A DNA stretch of 21,538 bases from a virus. A model generated the notes under the pieces. It saw only the letters and a list, made by a program, of their open reading frames with translations. It searched no databases and had not been told where the DNA came from. A program made the translations under genes and the position numbers. The stretch covers positions 1-21,538 of IMG/VR virus record IMGVR_UViG_3300032086_003016. One strand, 5' to 3'. Positions 8,053-18,151 of this stretch are shown in pieces (the first letter of the stretch is position 1; each line of letters opens with the position of its first letter).

Positions 8053-8349
8053 TCACCATTTGCAACGGTCAGCCCAGTAAGCCGCTGACATTTTGCCCCT
8101 TGCTATATTTTTTGCGTGGCGGTCTTTAAACGCCTTGCGCTTCTTCTTCATTGCCGCACTTTCACCTTTTTTCGGTGCGCCCGCAGTTTTTGCGCCCTGC
8201 TGACCAAAGCGAATCAGTTTTATCTTGTCACCTTCCTTGGCAACAACGACATGGCTCTTTGTTGGGTGATTCGGAGTGCGTTTGCACTTGTTATACCCGC
8301 TCACACCTGCTCTGGCTAAACGGGGGTCCTTAGGTGCTCTTGGTGCCAT
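8053..8349 (-). CDS. Conserved small basic phage protein, unknown function
   Basis: 98 aa from ATG 8349 (ATG 8352 directly before it is an alternative; GAGGTAG fits 8349 better). The pattern RLARAGVSGYNKCKRTPNHP then SHVVVAKEGDKIKLIRFGQQ then RHAKNIARGKMSAAYWADR is widespread in phages as I remember it. It looks like a small beta-sheet domain followed by a basic helix. The first codons overlap the acidic gene upstream by about 20 bases. Function not established. Confidence 0.8.
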   Translation of the reverse strand: MAPRAPKDPRLARAGVSGYNKCKRTPNHPTKSHVVVAKEGDKIKLIRFGQQGAKTAGAPKKGESAAMKKKRKAFKDRHAKNIARGKMSAAYWADRCKW

Positions 8350-8620
8350 CATCTACCTCAACAAGCATACTGTCCCTGACCTCGTAATATTGCTCAGGTT
8401 CCAGCCCCGCACGGAACGCCCAGAGGGCCGACATATGCAACAGGGCCATCATTATCTCTTCAGCGTCAACATCCATGACGTGAAAGGTGCCCTGAGCGTT
8501 CAGGTCCATAACGTCAACAAGCGACCTGACCCGCTCTTCATGCCTCAAGAGCACGTCAACCGAATCAAAATTAACCTCTATATCCAGTTCCTTTTTCGGA
8601 AACTTAACAACATTATCCAC
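8330..8620 (-). CDS. Acidic 96-aa protein, first gene of the late leftward operon
   Basis: 96 aa starting with GTG at 8620 behind a good GAGGAG site (6 bases). Strongly acidic, with helical segments (VDVLLRHEERVRSLVDVM, then AEEIMMALLHMSALWAFRA). It is the first gene after a minus-strand promoter (8646-8674). No family recognised. Its composition is opposite to the very basic proteins that follow. Confidence 0.75.
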   Translation of the reverse strand: MDNVVKFPKKELDIEVNFDSVDVLLRHEERVRSLVDVMDLNAQGTFHVMDVDAEEIMMALLHMSALWAFRAGLEPEQYYEVRDSMLVEVDDGTKST

Positions 8621-8645
8621 GCGGAACTCCTCAAAAGTCCTTGCC

Positions 8646-11944: not shown

Positions 11945-11960
11945 AGGCACCTCCTAACCC

Positions 11961-11990
11961 GTTATAACCTGAACAAGTTAAGCATTGCAA
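11961..11990 (-). promoter_or_regulatory. Possible leftward promoter of terS-terL
   Basis: On the minus strand, TTGCAA (11985-11990) and TATAAC (11961-11966) are 18 bases apart, about 17 bases before the terS ATG. Moderate match to sigma-70. Confidence 0.4.
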
Positions 11991-11998
11991 GTTAGCTG

Positions 11999-12036
11999 TT
12001 GACTAACCCTAATACTTAGTTTAAGGCTATATTATA
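11999..12036 (+). promoter_or_regulatory. Rightward promoter carrying the shared TAATACTTAG element
   Basis: TAATACTTAG (12010-12019), 8-base spacer TTTAAGGC, TATATTATA (12028-12036), 21 bases before the ATG at 12058. TTGACT at 11999-12004 lies upstream, but no good -10 sits 17 bases after it. Same layout as the element at 8703-8729. Confidence 0.6.
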
Positions 12037-12057
12037 ACCGTTCAAAAGGAGGAACAA

Positions 12058-12538: not shown

Positions 12539-12561
12539 GGGAGGCTTCGGCCTCCCTTTTT
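12539..12561 (+). terminator. Rho-independent terminator of the second plus-strand island
   Basis: GGGAGGC (12539-12545), loop TTCG, GCCTCCC (12550-12556), then five T. A perfect 7-base-pair stem with a UUCG tetraloop and T-run, acting on plus-strand transcripts. The T-run meets the stop codon of the convergent replication gene. Confidence 0.93.
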
Positions 12562-13157
12562 CATATCGGCTTAGGCAATCCATTACCCAACTCTAGCCAA
12601 GCATCATCGCTCTGGTCAGTCAGCAGAAACACCTCAACATCATCCAGTATAGGCTGGAACCTGAACCCCTCCGCCTTATACTTCTGCCACAATCTGTCAG
12701 CCAGTGTATGAGCGAACGCCTTCTGCTTATCAGATAAAACCCTCTCCCTCTTTTTGTTCTGACGGTAGCGTTTCTCACTAGTAGTTATAAGGGTTAAAGT
12801 ATTATAAGGGTTAGTGGCTCTGTGTGAGCCCTCAGGAGCACTGTTTGAGGGCTCAGAGTGAGCCGTCTCACAGTGAGCCCTACCCTCGTCAGTGTCTTTT
12901 TCAACAAATGTCATCACCACAATATCGGTTTTATTAAACCGCTTTTGCCTGTGGATCACTCCCGCATCTTCCAACTGCTTCAGCTTGCGTTTTACCGTTG
13001 CCCGTGAGCATCCGCACAACTCGCATATGCGTTGCACACTGGGCCAAGCCTGACCCATGCTGTCGTTCATATGGTCGGCAACACACAACAGAACCAGCTT
13101 CTCCAGCGGGTCTTTGGTCTGATAGTCCCACGCCCATGCCAACGCCTTCACGCTCAT
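12561..13157 (-). CDS. Winged-helix replication protein (phage O-like initiator candidate)
   Basis: 198 aa. The N-terminus, VKALAWAWDYQTKDPLEKLV then ADHMNDSMGQAWPSVQRICE then CGCSRATVKRKLKQLEDAGV, is the winged-helix domain common to phage replication proteins that open the origin and load the helicase. A low-complexity linker (about 90-130) follows, then a basic C-terminal helix region (DKQKAFAHTLADRLWQKYKA). The linker codons contain direct and inverted repeats (12785-12881), as in lambda O, where the origin lies inside the gene. Last gene of the leftward operon, ATGA-coupled to the previous one. No helicase or polymerase gene is in the window. Initiator role inferred; a plain HTH regulator is the alternative. 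Confidence 0.78.
   Translation of the reverse strand: MSVKALAWAWDYQTKDPLEKLVLLCVADHMNDSMGQAWPSVQRICELCGCSRATVKRKLKQLEDAGVIHRQKRFNKTDIVVMTFVEKDTDEGRAHCETAHSEPSNSAPEGSHRATNPYNTLTLITTSEKRYRQNKKRERVLSDKQKAFAHTLADRLWQKYKAEGFRFQPILDDVEVFLLTDQSDDAWLELGNGLPKPI
12785..12881. repeat. Iteron-like repeats inside the replication gene, candidate origin
   Basis: Two direct copies of TTATAAGGGTTA (12785-12796 and 12802-12813, period 17). Next to them TGAGCCCTCA (12825-12834) is a perfect inverted match of TGAGGGCTCA (12846-12855), and GTGAGCC occurs in direct orientation at 12824, 12858 and 12873. The AT-rich pair beside the GC-rich set recalls the iteron plus unwinding-region plan of lambdoid origins. The stretch encodes only a low-complexity linker, so the repeats are unlikely to be there for protein reasons. 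Confidence 0.6.
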
Positions 13158-15471: not shown

Positions 15472-15655
15472 TCTGACCCTTTCGGTAGTTTGATTTGCGC
15501 CGCTGATAAGCCATGCGAACAGAAGACGAAAAGTCACCTGTCGGCTTGGGCCCGTGATCAGCCTGCTCATAATGCTTAAAGAAAATGACCCGTTCAGTCA
15601 TGCGCTTTAAATAACGCTCGAACTCATCGGGTGGCAGGTCGCAGGGGTCACTCAC
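15458..15655 (-). CDS. 65-aa protein, unknown function
   Basis: From GTG 15655 with GGAGG 9 bases upstream (TTG 15661 is the other option). Contains CDLPPDEFERYLKRMTERVI and a basic end (RMAYQRRKSNYRKGQ). Start overlaps the regulator gene by 8 bases. No motif recognised; reality rests on operon spacing and the ribosome site. Confidence 0.6.
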   Translation of the reverse strand: MSDPCDLPPDEFERYLKRMTERVIFFKHYEQADHGPKPTGDFSSSVRMAYQRRKSNYRKGQNDDR

Positions 15656-15848
15656 CAGCAAACACCTCCGCCCAGTCTTTCAGACCAACCTTGCCAGCCG
15701 ACATTTTATGAATCTGTATCATGTGCAAACCGCTTGGTGGCCGCTTGCCATAAATCCAATTATGGACAGTCGGCTGTGTCACCTTCATGTCCCTTGCAAG
15801 GTCTGCCTGCCGCAAACCCTTGTGCACTAACCATTCCGCTAACGTCAC
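15648..15848 (-). CDS. Cro/CI-like helix-turn-helix regulator
   Basis: 66 aa from GTG 15848 (AGGAG upstream). It is nearly all one HTH domain: LAEWLVHKGLRQADLARDMK then VTQPTVHNWIYGKRPPSG, with the QADLARDMKVTQPTVHNW helix-turn-helix. Size and fold fit Cro-type repressors. It is the first gene of the leftward methylase/resolvase/replication operon, next to the divergent control region 15849-15940, so it probably represses one or both promoters there. No CI-sized partner or integrase is seen, so it is not evidence of lysogeny. Confidence 0.88.
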   Translation of the reverse strand: MTLAEWLVHKGLRQADLARDMKVTQPTVHNWIYGKRPPSGLHMIQIHKMSAGKVGLKDWAEVFAGE

Positions 15849-15940
15849 CCATAACTCCTATTTAACTGTTGACACTAATGTGTATAACCCTTAGTAAAGT
15901 AGAATTAGGAAACTGTAAACAGAAAAATTAGTCAGGGTTT
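15849..15940. promoter_or_regulatory. Divergent control region with a perfect DnaA box
   Basis: Intergenic region between the HTH regulator (left) and the exonuclease operon (right). TTGACA lies at 15869-15874. TGTGTATAAC (15879-15888) is a possible extended -10 for rightward transcription (TTTAAC about 16 bases before TATAAC), and TGTGTATAA (15879-15887) is the complement of TTATACACA, a perfect DnaA box. AACCCTTA follows (15887-15894), shared with the repeats at 12785-12813. CACTAATG (15873-15880) and AAATTAGT (15925-15932 approx.) may be half-sites. Promoter assignment tentative; control role likely from position. Confidence 0.6.
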
Positions 15941-16753
15941 ATGCAAGAAGAGCTCACACATTATAGTCCAAGTCAGTTGCTACGGCCAATGGCTATCTGG
16001 ATGTTCCAATATATTTATTTGAACCGCAAACAGCGCAGAGCCATAAAGGTTGGCTGGAACGCGGCATTTGGCACGGCGGTCCACGGCGGTATACAGGCCA
16101 TGATGACTATAGGCTCCTCTTTGGACGAGGCCATTGACAGCGCACTTATGTCCTATGATTTCCATGATGCTCCTGATTCGGAGCCGGACGAAAAGAAAGA
16201 AAAGTTCAGGGAGTTGATACCCGTTGCTATAGAAAACGGTGTTGATCTCTTAGCAGACCAGTTCGGGGGTGCTCAGGAGGAGCAGAAGGTCGAGGTATCT
16301 TTGGCGGGTGTAGACTTGCCGATATTGGGGTTCATAGACCTCTGCTCCGCCACAGCGTTCTGCGAGGTGAAAACAAAGGCACCGCGCATGGGTGCTGTAA
16401 AAAAGGACGGCACCAGAGGCTGGACCAAGGCGTCCATACCAGAGAAGCCACAGTTTGAGCACCTGTGCCAAGTCGCTATCTATCAGCTTGCCACGGGCCT
16501 GACCCCACACATTGCGTATGTATCCGGCACTGACGCTGTTCTGTTTGGCCCTAATAACTGTGAGGAACTACAGCCTGATCGCATGGCTCATTATGTCGAG
16601 GAGATGCGGGCCCGTGCGATTCGCAGGCAGAACCTGTTGCAAGTTTCAACTGACCCGAAAGTTCTGGCAGGTGTTTTGGACCCAGACTTTCAGCACCCGT
16701 TTTATTGGGACGATGATTATATAGAGGAGGCAAAAGCATTATGGAAGGTATGA
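15941..16753 (+). CDS. RecB/Cas4-family exonuclease (PD-(D/E)XK)
   Basis: 270 aa. Motifs in order: HYSPSQLL at the N-terminus, His48 in GTAVHGG, Asp133 in ILGFIDL, Glu142 and Lys144 in FCEVKTK, and the QxxxY-like CQVAIYQLATG. This set marks RecB-type phage exonucleases that chew one strand to give a tail for annealing. The next gene encodes the annealing protein, so the pair is a two-component recombinase as in lambda exo-bet. AGGG lies close before the ATG. First gene of the rightward operon. All catalytic residues present. Confidence 0.88.
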   Translation: MQEELTHYSPSQLLRPMAIWMFQYIYLNRKQRRAIKVGWNAAFGTAVHGGIQAMMTIGSSLDEAIDSALMSYDFHDAPDSEPDEKKEKFRELIPVAIENGVDLLADQFGGAQEEQKVEVSLAGVDLPILGFIDLCSATAFCEVKTKAPRMGAVKKDGTRGWTKASIPEKPQFEHLCQVAIYQLATGLTPHIAYVSGTDAVLFGPNNCEELQPDRMAHYVEEMRARAIRRQNLLQVSTDPKVLAGVLDPDFQHPFYWDDDYIEEAKALWKV

Positions 16754-17406
16754 ACATCTGGAAAACCATGTCGCAGATTGACACACGGAAGCTGGTCGAG
16801 AAAAAGAACGGCTTTACTTATCTGTCATGGTCCCACGCCCTGCGTCTGTTAAAGGACCATGTGCCAGACGCAATGGTGACAAAGCACATATTTAAACAGC
16901 CTGATGGAACTTTTCTGCCCTACATGGTAGACCCTTCGGGCTTTGCCTATGTGCAGGTGACTGTCACGCTGGGCAAGGATGTTGCGGCGGCTACAGAAAT
17001 CATGCCCGTGCTAAACCATGCCAACAGGCCCGTTCAAAAGCCCAACAGCTTCGAGGTTAACGCATCACTGCAACGGTGCATGGCTAAGGCCATCAGCATG
17101 GCTACGGGGCTGGGGATACATTTATACAGCGGCGAGGATTTGCCGCAGAGCTTTGCTGGACCAGACAACTCTGGGGTAAAGGCAAATGAGGGGACTGCAT
17201 CGACAATATATAGTTACCACGATGACAAAACCGCAACTGGTGCGGTTCCCTCTGGTAATTTAAAACAGCTATCACTTGCAGAGGAGATAGCTATGTGCCC
17301 CGATATAGAGGCTCTTAAAACTCTCTACAATCGGGTGCAACTTAGATTGACTGCCGAGGACCGGCAGTTATTCACCAGCCGCAAAAAGGAGTTTATCAAT
17401 GGCTGA
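16741..17406 (+). CDS. DUF1071/Sak3-like single-strand annealing protein
   Basis: 221 aa from ATG 16741 (GAGGAGG 10 bases upstream; ATG 16750, ATGA-overlapping the exonuclease stop, is possible). The segments EKKNGFTYLSWSHALRLLKD, EIMPVLNHANRPV, and NASLQRCMAKAISMATGLGI then HLYSGEDLP are the DUF1071 signature. Members act as phage annealing proteins (Sak3 group). The C-terminal 75 residues are a variable linker and a short helical tail. It would anneal the tails made by the upstream exonuclease. Confidence 0.88.
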   Translation: MEGMNIWKTMSQIDTRKLVEKKNGFTYLSWSHALRLLKDHVPDAMVTKHIFKQPDGTFLPYMVDPSGFAYVQVTVTLGKDVAAATEIMPVLNHANRPVQKPNSFEVNASLQRCMAKAISMATGLGIHLYSGEDLPQSFAGPDNSGVKANEGTASTIYSYHDDKTATGAVPSGNLKQLSLAEEIAMCPDIEALKTLYNRVQLRLTAEDRQLFTSRKKEFING

Positions 17407-17656
17407 ATATGAGCAGAAGGATATGACGGGTTCGTTGTTTCCAAATGACAAGGGTGACAATGAAATGCGCCCTGATATGCGTGGCACCATCATGGTCGGC
17501 GGTACAAAGTACAGCCTGTCAGCGTGGAAGAACGAATCAAAGGCGGGCAAGAAATATGTCAGCCTGAAGGTGTCGGAGTTCATCGAGCGACCAGCTAGTA
17601 ACGGCGCGGCTACTGCTCCGGCTAATAATAGCATAGATGATGAAATACCGTTTTAA
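17399..17656 (+). CDS. Small ssDNA-binding-like protein with an SSB-type C-terminal tip
   Basis: 85 aa. MRGTIMVGGTKYSLSAWKNE then KAGKKYVSLKVSEF is a short beta-rich core resembling DUF736/ssDNA-binding-like small proteins. A flexible Ala/Asn linker leads to the tip SIDDEIPF, nearly the DDDIPF end with which bacterial SSB recruits repair proteins. AAGGAG precedes the ATG. Placed right after exonuclease and annealing genes. The tail suggests docking to host SSB partners; this is inference, and a full OB fold is not certain at this length. Confidence 0.75.
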   Translation: MAEYEQKDMTGSLFPNDKGDNEMRPDMRGTIMVGGTKYSLSAWKNESKAGKKYVSLKVSEFIERPASNGAATAPANNSIDDEIPF

Positions 17657-17874
17657 TGGCTTGGTATGACCGCAAGAAAAAGAAGCAGAAGGATCAGGCT
17701 GTGCCTGTCGATAGGTACGACACCTGCTCCTTTTGCAAGGGAACTTTTAACTGGCGGGTTGCAGGCGTTACTAATGGACTAAAGGAGGTTTTTTGTTCAG
17801 ATGAGTGTCTTAGAGAAAATTATCTTAAAAATGTTCGGGAGCTCGGTGAAACCGTCCCGTTTGACGCATTATGA
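17656..17874 (+). CDS. Small treble-clef zinc-finger protein
   Basis: 72 aa. CSFC near residues 24-27 and CSDEC near 47-51 form a CxxC...CxxxC zinc site like that of small treble-clef (MYM/YHS-type) fingers; the N-terminus is Lys-rich (RKKKKQKD). It starts on a TAATG overlap. Its last 74 bases also carry the start of the DnaA-like gene in another frame. Function unknown; protein or nucleic-acid binding likely. Confidence 0.75.
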   Translation: MAWYDRKKKKQKDQAVPVDRYDTCSFCKGTFNWRVAGVTNGLKEVFCSDECLRENYLKNVRELGETVPFDAL

Positions 17875-18151
17875 CCAGCGCATTGAAAAGGTCATCCGAA
17901 TCACCAGCGAGGTCACAGGGGTGCCAATGGCAGAACTGTTGTCCAAGCGGCGTTATAACTCAGACGAGCGGCACATTGCAATGTACTTGTCCGTCAGACT
18001 GCTGGGTTGCTCTTATCCAGAGGTGGGCAGGGCATTTGGGCGCGACCACACTACCGTTTACTATGCGGTCAAAAAACTCGACAAGCGGGGCAGGGGCCGC
18101 TCAAAAATCAACCGTCACCTTAGGGAAGTTGAGCGGTGTCTGAGCGCATGA
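17801..18151 (+). CDS. Stand-alone DnaA domain IV (origin DNA-binding domain)
   Basis: 116 aa from ATG 17801; GTG 17846 with GGGAG 5 bases upstream is a strong alternative (101 aa). ATG 17801 has AAAGGAGG about 12 bases away. The core V-TGVPMAELLSKRRYNSDER then HIAMYLSVRLLGCSYPEVGR then AFGRDHTTVYYAVKKL is the DnaA C-terminal domain with its signature GRDHTTV, whose residues read the DnaA box. The AAA+ ATPase and helicase-loading domains are absent. It could bind phage sites as a regulator or compete with host DnaA at oriC. A perfect DnaA box lies in this operon's control region. Confidence 0.85.
   Translation: MSVLEKIILKMFGSSVKPSRLTHYDQRIEKVIRITSEVTGVPMAELLSKRRYNSDERHIAMYLSVRLLGCSYPEVGRAFGRDHTTVYYAVKKLDKRGRGRSKINRHLREVERCLSA

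Follow-up and report, generated by a model that had tools for sequence, protein, structure and literature searches.

Stand-alone or fused copies of DnaA domain IV in a phage-like context have been described for GafY/HdaB of Caulobacter and for the N-terminal part of GafA of Rhodobacter (PMC9632790, PMC11150451, PMC9638019). GafY/HdaB was first described as acting in replication and was later shown to be a DNA-binding activator of the prophage-like gene transfer agent (GTA) cluster in Caulobacter (PMC9632790, PMC11150451), and GafA binds 75–125 bases upstream of terS in RcGTA (PMC9638019). The roles of DnaA residues R399 and T435 have also been reported (PMC9638019). In the PHROG collection, family 27829 ("DnaA-like replication initiation protein") combines small phage proteins with DnaA domain IV whose genes lie mostly beside replication genes; phage DnaA-IV proteins without an ATPase are, consequently, a known kind. 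Annotated phage "DnaA" genes are present in Caudoviricetes MW202613, Rhizobium phage RHph_TM3_3_3, and Microcystis phage Mae-JY35, and no literature on phage-encoded DnaA was found under "phage-encoded DnaA" or Bac_DnaA_C. Another system relevant to the locus considered here is the lambda-type replication module, in which an O-like gene with internal iterons adjoins an AT-rich stretch. The phage under study has such a module, and its DnaA-IV protein is an extra element.

Results

Organization of the Early Operon

The window, i.e., the whole stretch of 21,538 nucleotides that was analyzed (IMG/VR record IMGVR_UViG_3300032086_003016), is a 21.5-kb piece of a tailed, marine-type phage. Its gene layout resembles that of phage C72C1 (OQ984150, 34.9 kb, circular) and of some dozens of IMG/VR contigs. 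The nearest terminase of a cultured phage with a named host was that of Sinorhizobium phage phiM5 (47%). The window belongs to clade 1 of the relatives, and clade 2 is more distant from it (identity to the window of about 66–70% for the repressor and 51–52% for DnaA-IV).

A 92-bp gap (15849–15940) separates a leftward operon, the first gene of which encodes a 66-aa Cro/CI-type helix-turn-helix repressor (15648–15848, minus strand; HTH_3 E = 5e-7, YdaS E = 5e-8, and PHROG repressors), from a rightward early operon. The latter (plus strand) begins with a candidate RecB/Cas4-like nuclease gene (15941–16753; weak matches to phrog_10230, E = 2e-6, and phrog_1706, E = 1e-4), followed by genes for a Sak-type single-strand annealing protein (16741–17406; SSAP_Sak E = 2.5e-33), a small single-strand DNA-binding protein (SSB, 17399–17656; phrog_18154 E = 6.4e-12), a small zinc-finger-like protein (17656–17874), and the DnaA-IV protein (17801–18151); further small genes, a candidate lysozyme-like endolysin, and membrane proteins come after it. 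The position of the DnaA-IV gene was constant in every relative whose contig reaches that far, and the gene is a core member of the early operon, which is itself conserved. It starts inside the 3' end of the zinc-finger-like gene, and this overlap of about 70 nt (17801–17874 in the window) was found in all 11 records checked, suggesting translational coupling of the two genes. The dN/dS values of the DnaA-IV gene between the window and its relatives were 0.10–0.26; the gene is under purifying selection. Close relatives of the family were not found as prophages in 84,980 bacterial and archaeal genomes, where the matches were more distant and mostly represented DnaA.

The DnaA-IV Protein

According to the preliminary description, the gene at 17801–18151 encodes a DnaA domain IV with the motifs RHIAMYL and AFGRDHTTV and without an ATPase domain. 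Both motifs are present; domain IV was the only domain matched in the 116 residues, and AAA+ is missing. The protein consists of a short N-terminal helix (MSVLEKII), a Bac_DnaA_C domain at residues 28–92 (PF08299, E = 4.6e-18, 65.4 bits versus the curated cut-off of 31.5), and a C-terminal helix. Against the full-length DnaA model TIGR00362, it scored 64 bits versus a cut-off of 344; its assignment as a full DnaA replication initiator was rejected, as both the AAA+ ATPase domain III and the helicase-recruiting domain I are missing. The best PDB sequence matches were the DNA-binding domains of M. tuberculosis and E. coli DnaA. The structure comparison proposed earlier, performed with an AlphaFold2 model (pLDDT 85), gave Foldseek TM-scores (by target length) of 0.81 and 0.86 to 3PVP (M. 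tuberculosis) and 1J1V (E. coli), respectively, which are DnaA DNA-binding domains bound to DnaA boxes. The phage protein has in common with these domains the fold, the helix-turn-helix, the signature GRDHTTV, and the contact residues, whereas it differs from DnaA in having neither domains I–III nor the ATPase and in its conserved N-terminus, MSVLxKII.

In an alignment of 20 family members, R50, R51, R57, H58, D82, and H83 were invariant, and positions 84 and 85 (T84/T85, the counterparts of E. coli T435/T436) were occupied by T or S. The E. coli contact residues R399, R407, D433, and H434 correspond to R51, R57, D82, and H83, respectively, the equivalence being obtained by counting along the E. 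coli sequence. The single-G sequence AFGRDHTTVMYA of the phage protein is identical to that of M. tuberculosis DnaA. The sole structural oddity is the loss of two residues from the loop joining the counterparts of R399 and R407, a deletion that is characteristic of clade 1 and is seen neither in clade 2 nor in the outlier L066; it may alter minor-groove reading in clade 1.

Comparison with GafY and with Other Phage DnaA-IV Genes

The comparison with GafY was carried out using GafY-type homologues from Alphaproteobacteria. In the tree, these formed a clade (support 96/94) apart from the phage family (98/90). With the phage protein, the DnaA model scored 64 bits and the GafY-type model PRK06030 scored 33, while the reverse preference was seen in the GafY homologue L168 (58 and 71 bits, respectively). 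The recognition helix of GafY is mostly DR[ST]T, as opposed to DH[ST][ST] in the phage family. The sigma-like partner GafZ had no profile match in 12 phage records (tblastn best E = 0.38). Membership of the phage protein in GafY was rejected on the basis of the separate clade, the preference for the DnaA model, and the missing GafZ; nevertheless, it may work like GafY without being one.

In the gap upstream of terS (11945–12057), a non-coding element, GTTAGTCAACAGCTAA, near 11992–12007 is conserved in most clade 1 relatives. Two promoter-like sequences that point away from each other, rightward TTGACT and leftward TTGCAA-N17/18-TATAAC, flank this element, which is a candidate site for a phage regulator.

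The window family gave no PHROG match above noise, and its gene lies in a recombination/SSB operon apart from the O-like initiator, which distinguishes it from PHROG 27829. In other phage groups, a stand-alone DnaA-IV gene was located directly upstream of DnaB (L193 and L195), upstream of a replisome organizer gene (MW202613), after a DUF1376 gene (MN988468), near DUF2312 and DUF1376 genes (Bradyrhizobium phage OP596614), downstream of an O/DnaD-like protein gene (L203), adjoining MuB in the early region of a Mu-like prophage (L166), and beside a GapR-like gene (L196 and L197). In the two latter records (L196:3485–4072 and L197:3200–3787), the DnaA-IV gene is directly followed by genes for a GapR-domain protein and a RusA-like protein.

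Replication Initiator and Origin

A lambda O-like replication initiator is encoded at 12561–13157 on the minus strand (phrog_1032 E = 8.7e-25, HTH_36 E = 1.2e-14) and is likely the true initiator of the phage. Within its gene, a lambda-type origin (12785–12881) comprises inverted iterons (12816–12881) and two adjoining AT-rich TTATAAGGGTTA repeats (12785–12796 and 12802–12813). At the corresponding position, C72C1, G003, G007, and G008 have iterons that are just as clear but differ from those of the window (GTGTCA...TGACAC types). Given this origin and the O-like initiator, the DnaA-IV protein is unlikely to be the initiator.

The window contains exactly three copies of TAACCCTTA (0.13 expected), namely, one in the control region of the early promoter (15885–15893) and two in the AT-rich repeats of the origin (12788–12796 and 12805–12813). 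Since the latter two belong to a single tandem repeat, the finding is no more than a lead.

The DnaA Box in the Control Region

A perfect DnaA box had been reported on the minus strand of the repressor–operon gap, and TTATACACA is indeed found at 15879–15887. The sequence TTATNCACA has one perfect match in the entire window, and one-mismatch matches numbered 16 versus 17.5 expected. The location of the box, rather than the match itself, had been put forward as the argument; when the dinucleotides were shuffled, the 92-bp gap received a perfect box in 0.6% of cases and at least one of the nine intergenic gaps did so in 2.8%, so that the location is unusual, but only mildly. The second, eight-of-nine match mentioned earlier exists as well, at 8613–8621 rather than 8611–8619; it overlaps the GTG start codon of the gene 8330–8620 and is not conserved. 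Genome-wide enrichment of DnaA boxes was not found in 12 records (0–2 boxes each versus 0.3–1.2 expected).

The gap was compared across 37 contigs, C72C1, and a few more records. The box is conserved in the near-identical relatives of the window (L030 and L031) and in clade 2, where it was present in all 13 contigs (10 of 10 distinct control regions); this clade also keeps the DnaA-IV gene. In clade 1, it was missing from 15 of 17 distinct control regions; it was also missing from C72C1, L009, L010, L023, L029, and the outlier L066. About 20 box-less loci carry the DnaA-IV gene on the same contig, and loss of the box from close relatives that keep the gene is an outcome that had been named beforehand as refuting the preliminary interpretation. 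The FGRDHTTV helix of the box-less L034, L046, L047, and L009 is identical to that of the window, and, among the compared relatives, neither the repressor nor DnaA-IV had a recognition helix that covaried with the box. Thus, the box in the control region is dispensable for relatives that keep the DnaA-IV gene, with the reservation that, as both box and gene are kept in clade 2, it may serve as a binding site of DnaA-IV, host DnaA, or the repressor in particular lineages.

The Predicted Early Promoter and a Candidate Operator

Conservation among relatives points to a rightward promoter at 15869–15897 (plus strand), which the promoter scan did not flag, consisting of TTGACA (15869–15874), a 17-bp spacer, and TAGTAA (15892–15897), with TATTAA in place of TAGTAA in clade 2. 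The extended −10 previously proposed to underlie the box is weak by comparison. With the promoter so defined, the box sits in its spacer. In clade 1, TTGAC(A), ATA(A)CC, TAGTAAAG, and, further on, TGTAAA are conserved, whereas ten bases that take in the TGTG half of the box are free to vary; the TATAA part is kept by nearly all relatives. Clade 2 shows hardly any variation over the full 44 bp of the promoter, so that the box is conserved there, though no more so than its surroundings.

The palindrome ACACTAATGTGT (15872–15883) overlaps the −35 element and the box and provides candidate repressor operator half-sites in the box-carrying lineages. In each of the four records having the palindrome ACACTANTGTGT, it was found at this place of the control region only. 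Intermediate relatives do not have ACACTANTGTGT, which is shared by the window lineage and the distant clade 2, even though the recognition helix of the repressor is almost unchanged. Just downstream of the early promoter, CTGTAAACAG (15913–15922) forms a short inverted repeat, the arms of which seem to co-vary among relatives (CGGT..ACCG, CAGT..ACTG, and TTGT..ACAA), which suggests an operator or a leader hairpin. The most natural interpretation is that the box belongs to the spacer/operator of this conserved early promoter, opposite the divergent Cro-like repressor gene, with the box-like string occurring in two lineages.

Discussion

From its context, we tentatively favor, with slightly less than even confidence, the view that the DnaA-IV protein is an accessory factor of the phage replication and early-gene programme that binds DNA site-specifically. 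The ATPase-less protein would be made early in infection, together with the recombination and single-strand DNA-binding proteins, and would act in trans on sites other than the box at 15879. Replication itself would be initiated by the O-like protein at the iterons within its gene, in which case DnaA-IV would help rather than initiate. The Pfam, PDB-sequence, and fold matches, the invariant contact residues, the constant gene order, and the low dN/dS (0.10–0.26) agree with this role, as do the loss of the box with the gene kept, the lack of box enrichment, the O-like initiator with its iterons, and the replication-gene neighbors in other phages. Repeats around the DnaA-IV gene that could serve as binding sites were sought and not found. 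It should be noted, however, that in clade 2 the exact box accompanies the gene in 10 of 10 distinct control regions, that the replication-module context stems from other phage groups whereas the O-like gene of the window family lies in the divergent operon, and that a bare DNA-binding domain is equally compatible with a GafY-like role in transcription.

In the latter case, DnaA-IV would recruit or aid host RNA polymerase at phage promoters, for example the divergent ones upstream of the terminase genes. The precedents of GafY as a DnaA-domain-IV activator (PMC9632790, PMC11150451) and of GafA binding upstream of terS (PMC9638019), together with the GTTAGTCAACAGCTAA element conserved upstream of terS in clade 1, argue for such an activator, but the GafY clade is separate from the phage family, the bit scores on the DnaA and PRK06030 models point in opposite directions for the phage protein (64 versus 33) and L168 (58 versus 71), the 12 phage records have no GafZ homologue, and clade 2 is without the terS element; on balance, we consider this role rather unlikely. 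Still less probable is a host takeover in which DnaA-IV, occupying host DnaA boxes, would hinder host initiation or make host replication proteins available to the phage. A protein that retains the box-reading residues and has no ATPase would be expected to act as a dominant competitor, but similar genes recur beside phage replication genes and not among host-takeover genes.

As for the box, the preliminary interpretation holds in that the gene encodes a DnaA domain IV without an ATPase and with invariant box-reading core residues, but not in its proposal of autoregulation. Binding of DnaA-IV to TTATACACA at 15879–15887 to control the promoter of its own operon would be in line with the retained contact residues, with the placement of the box within the promoter (expected in this gap by chance at 0.6%), and with its presence in 10 of 10 distinct clade 2 regions, whereas 58% of the third codon positions of the neighboring repressor gene vary. 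However, the box is missing, with the gene kept, from 15 of 17 distinct clade 1 control regions and from C72C1, box-less relatives share the FGRDHTTV helix, and the near-invariance in clade 2 extends over all 44 bp of the promoter. As most close relatives that keep the gene are without the box, autoregulation through it, in the manner of host dnaA, appears very improbable. There is about an even chance that the box is instead a by-product of the conserved promoter/operator (TATAA plus the palindrome of the Cro-like repressor), unrelated to DnaA or DnaA-IV. Its site between the divergent repressor and the early operon, the conserved TATAA next to the variable TGTG half, and the confinement of ACACTANTGTGT to this place in the four records having it support this explanation, although lineages that have the palindrome and those that do not possess nearly the same repressor recognition helices, so that the palindrome does not track repressor specificity. 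The explanation concerns nothing but the box and can hold together with the accessory role of the DnaA-IV protein.

A broader reading, to which we assign a low probability as a whole, is that ATPase-less DnaA-IV is a recurrent phage tool, unrelated phages having independently paired a box reader with DnaB, a replisome organizer, or GapR; that host-type (or altered) DnaA boxes mark phage DNA or displace host DnaA; and that the reader also acts on its own early promoter in clade 2 and the window lineage. The evidence establishes the DnaA-IV family and its conservation and removes the box at 15879 as an argument for autoregulation. Should DnaA-IV proteins indeed recognize DnaA boxes in the infected cell, they would represent naturally occurring helpers or dominant competitors of DnaA and would offer a simple system for studying how box reading by DnaA is separated from ATP-driven origin melting.
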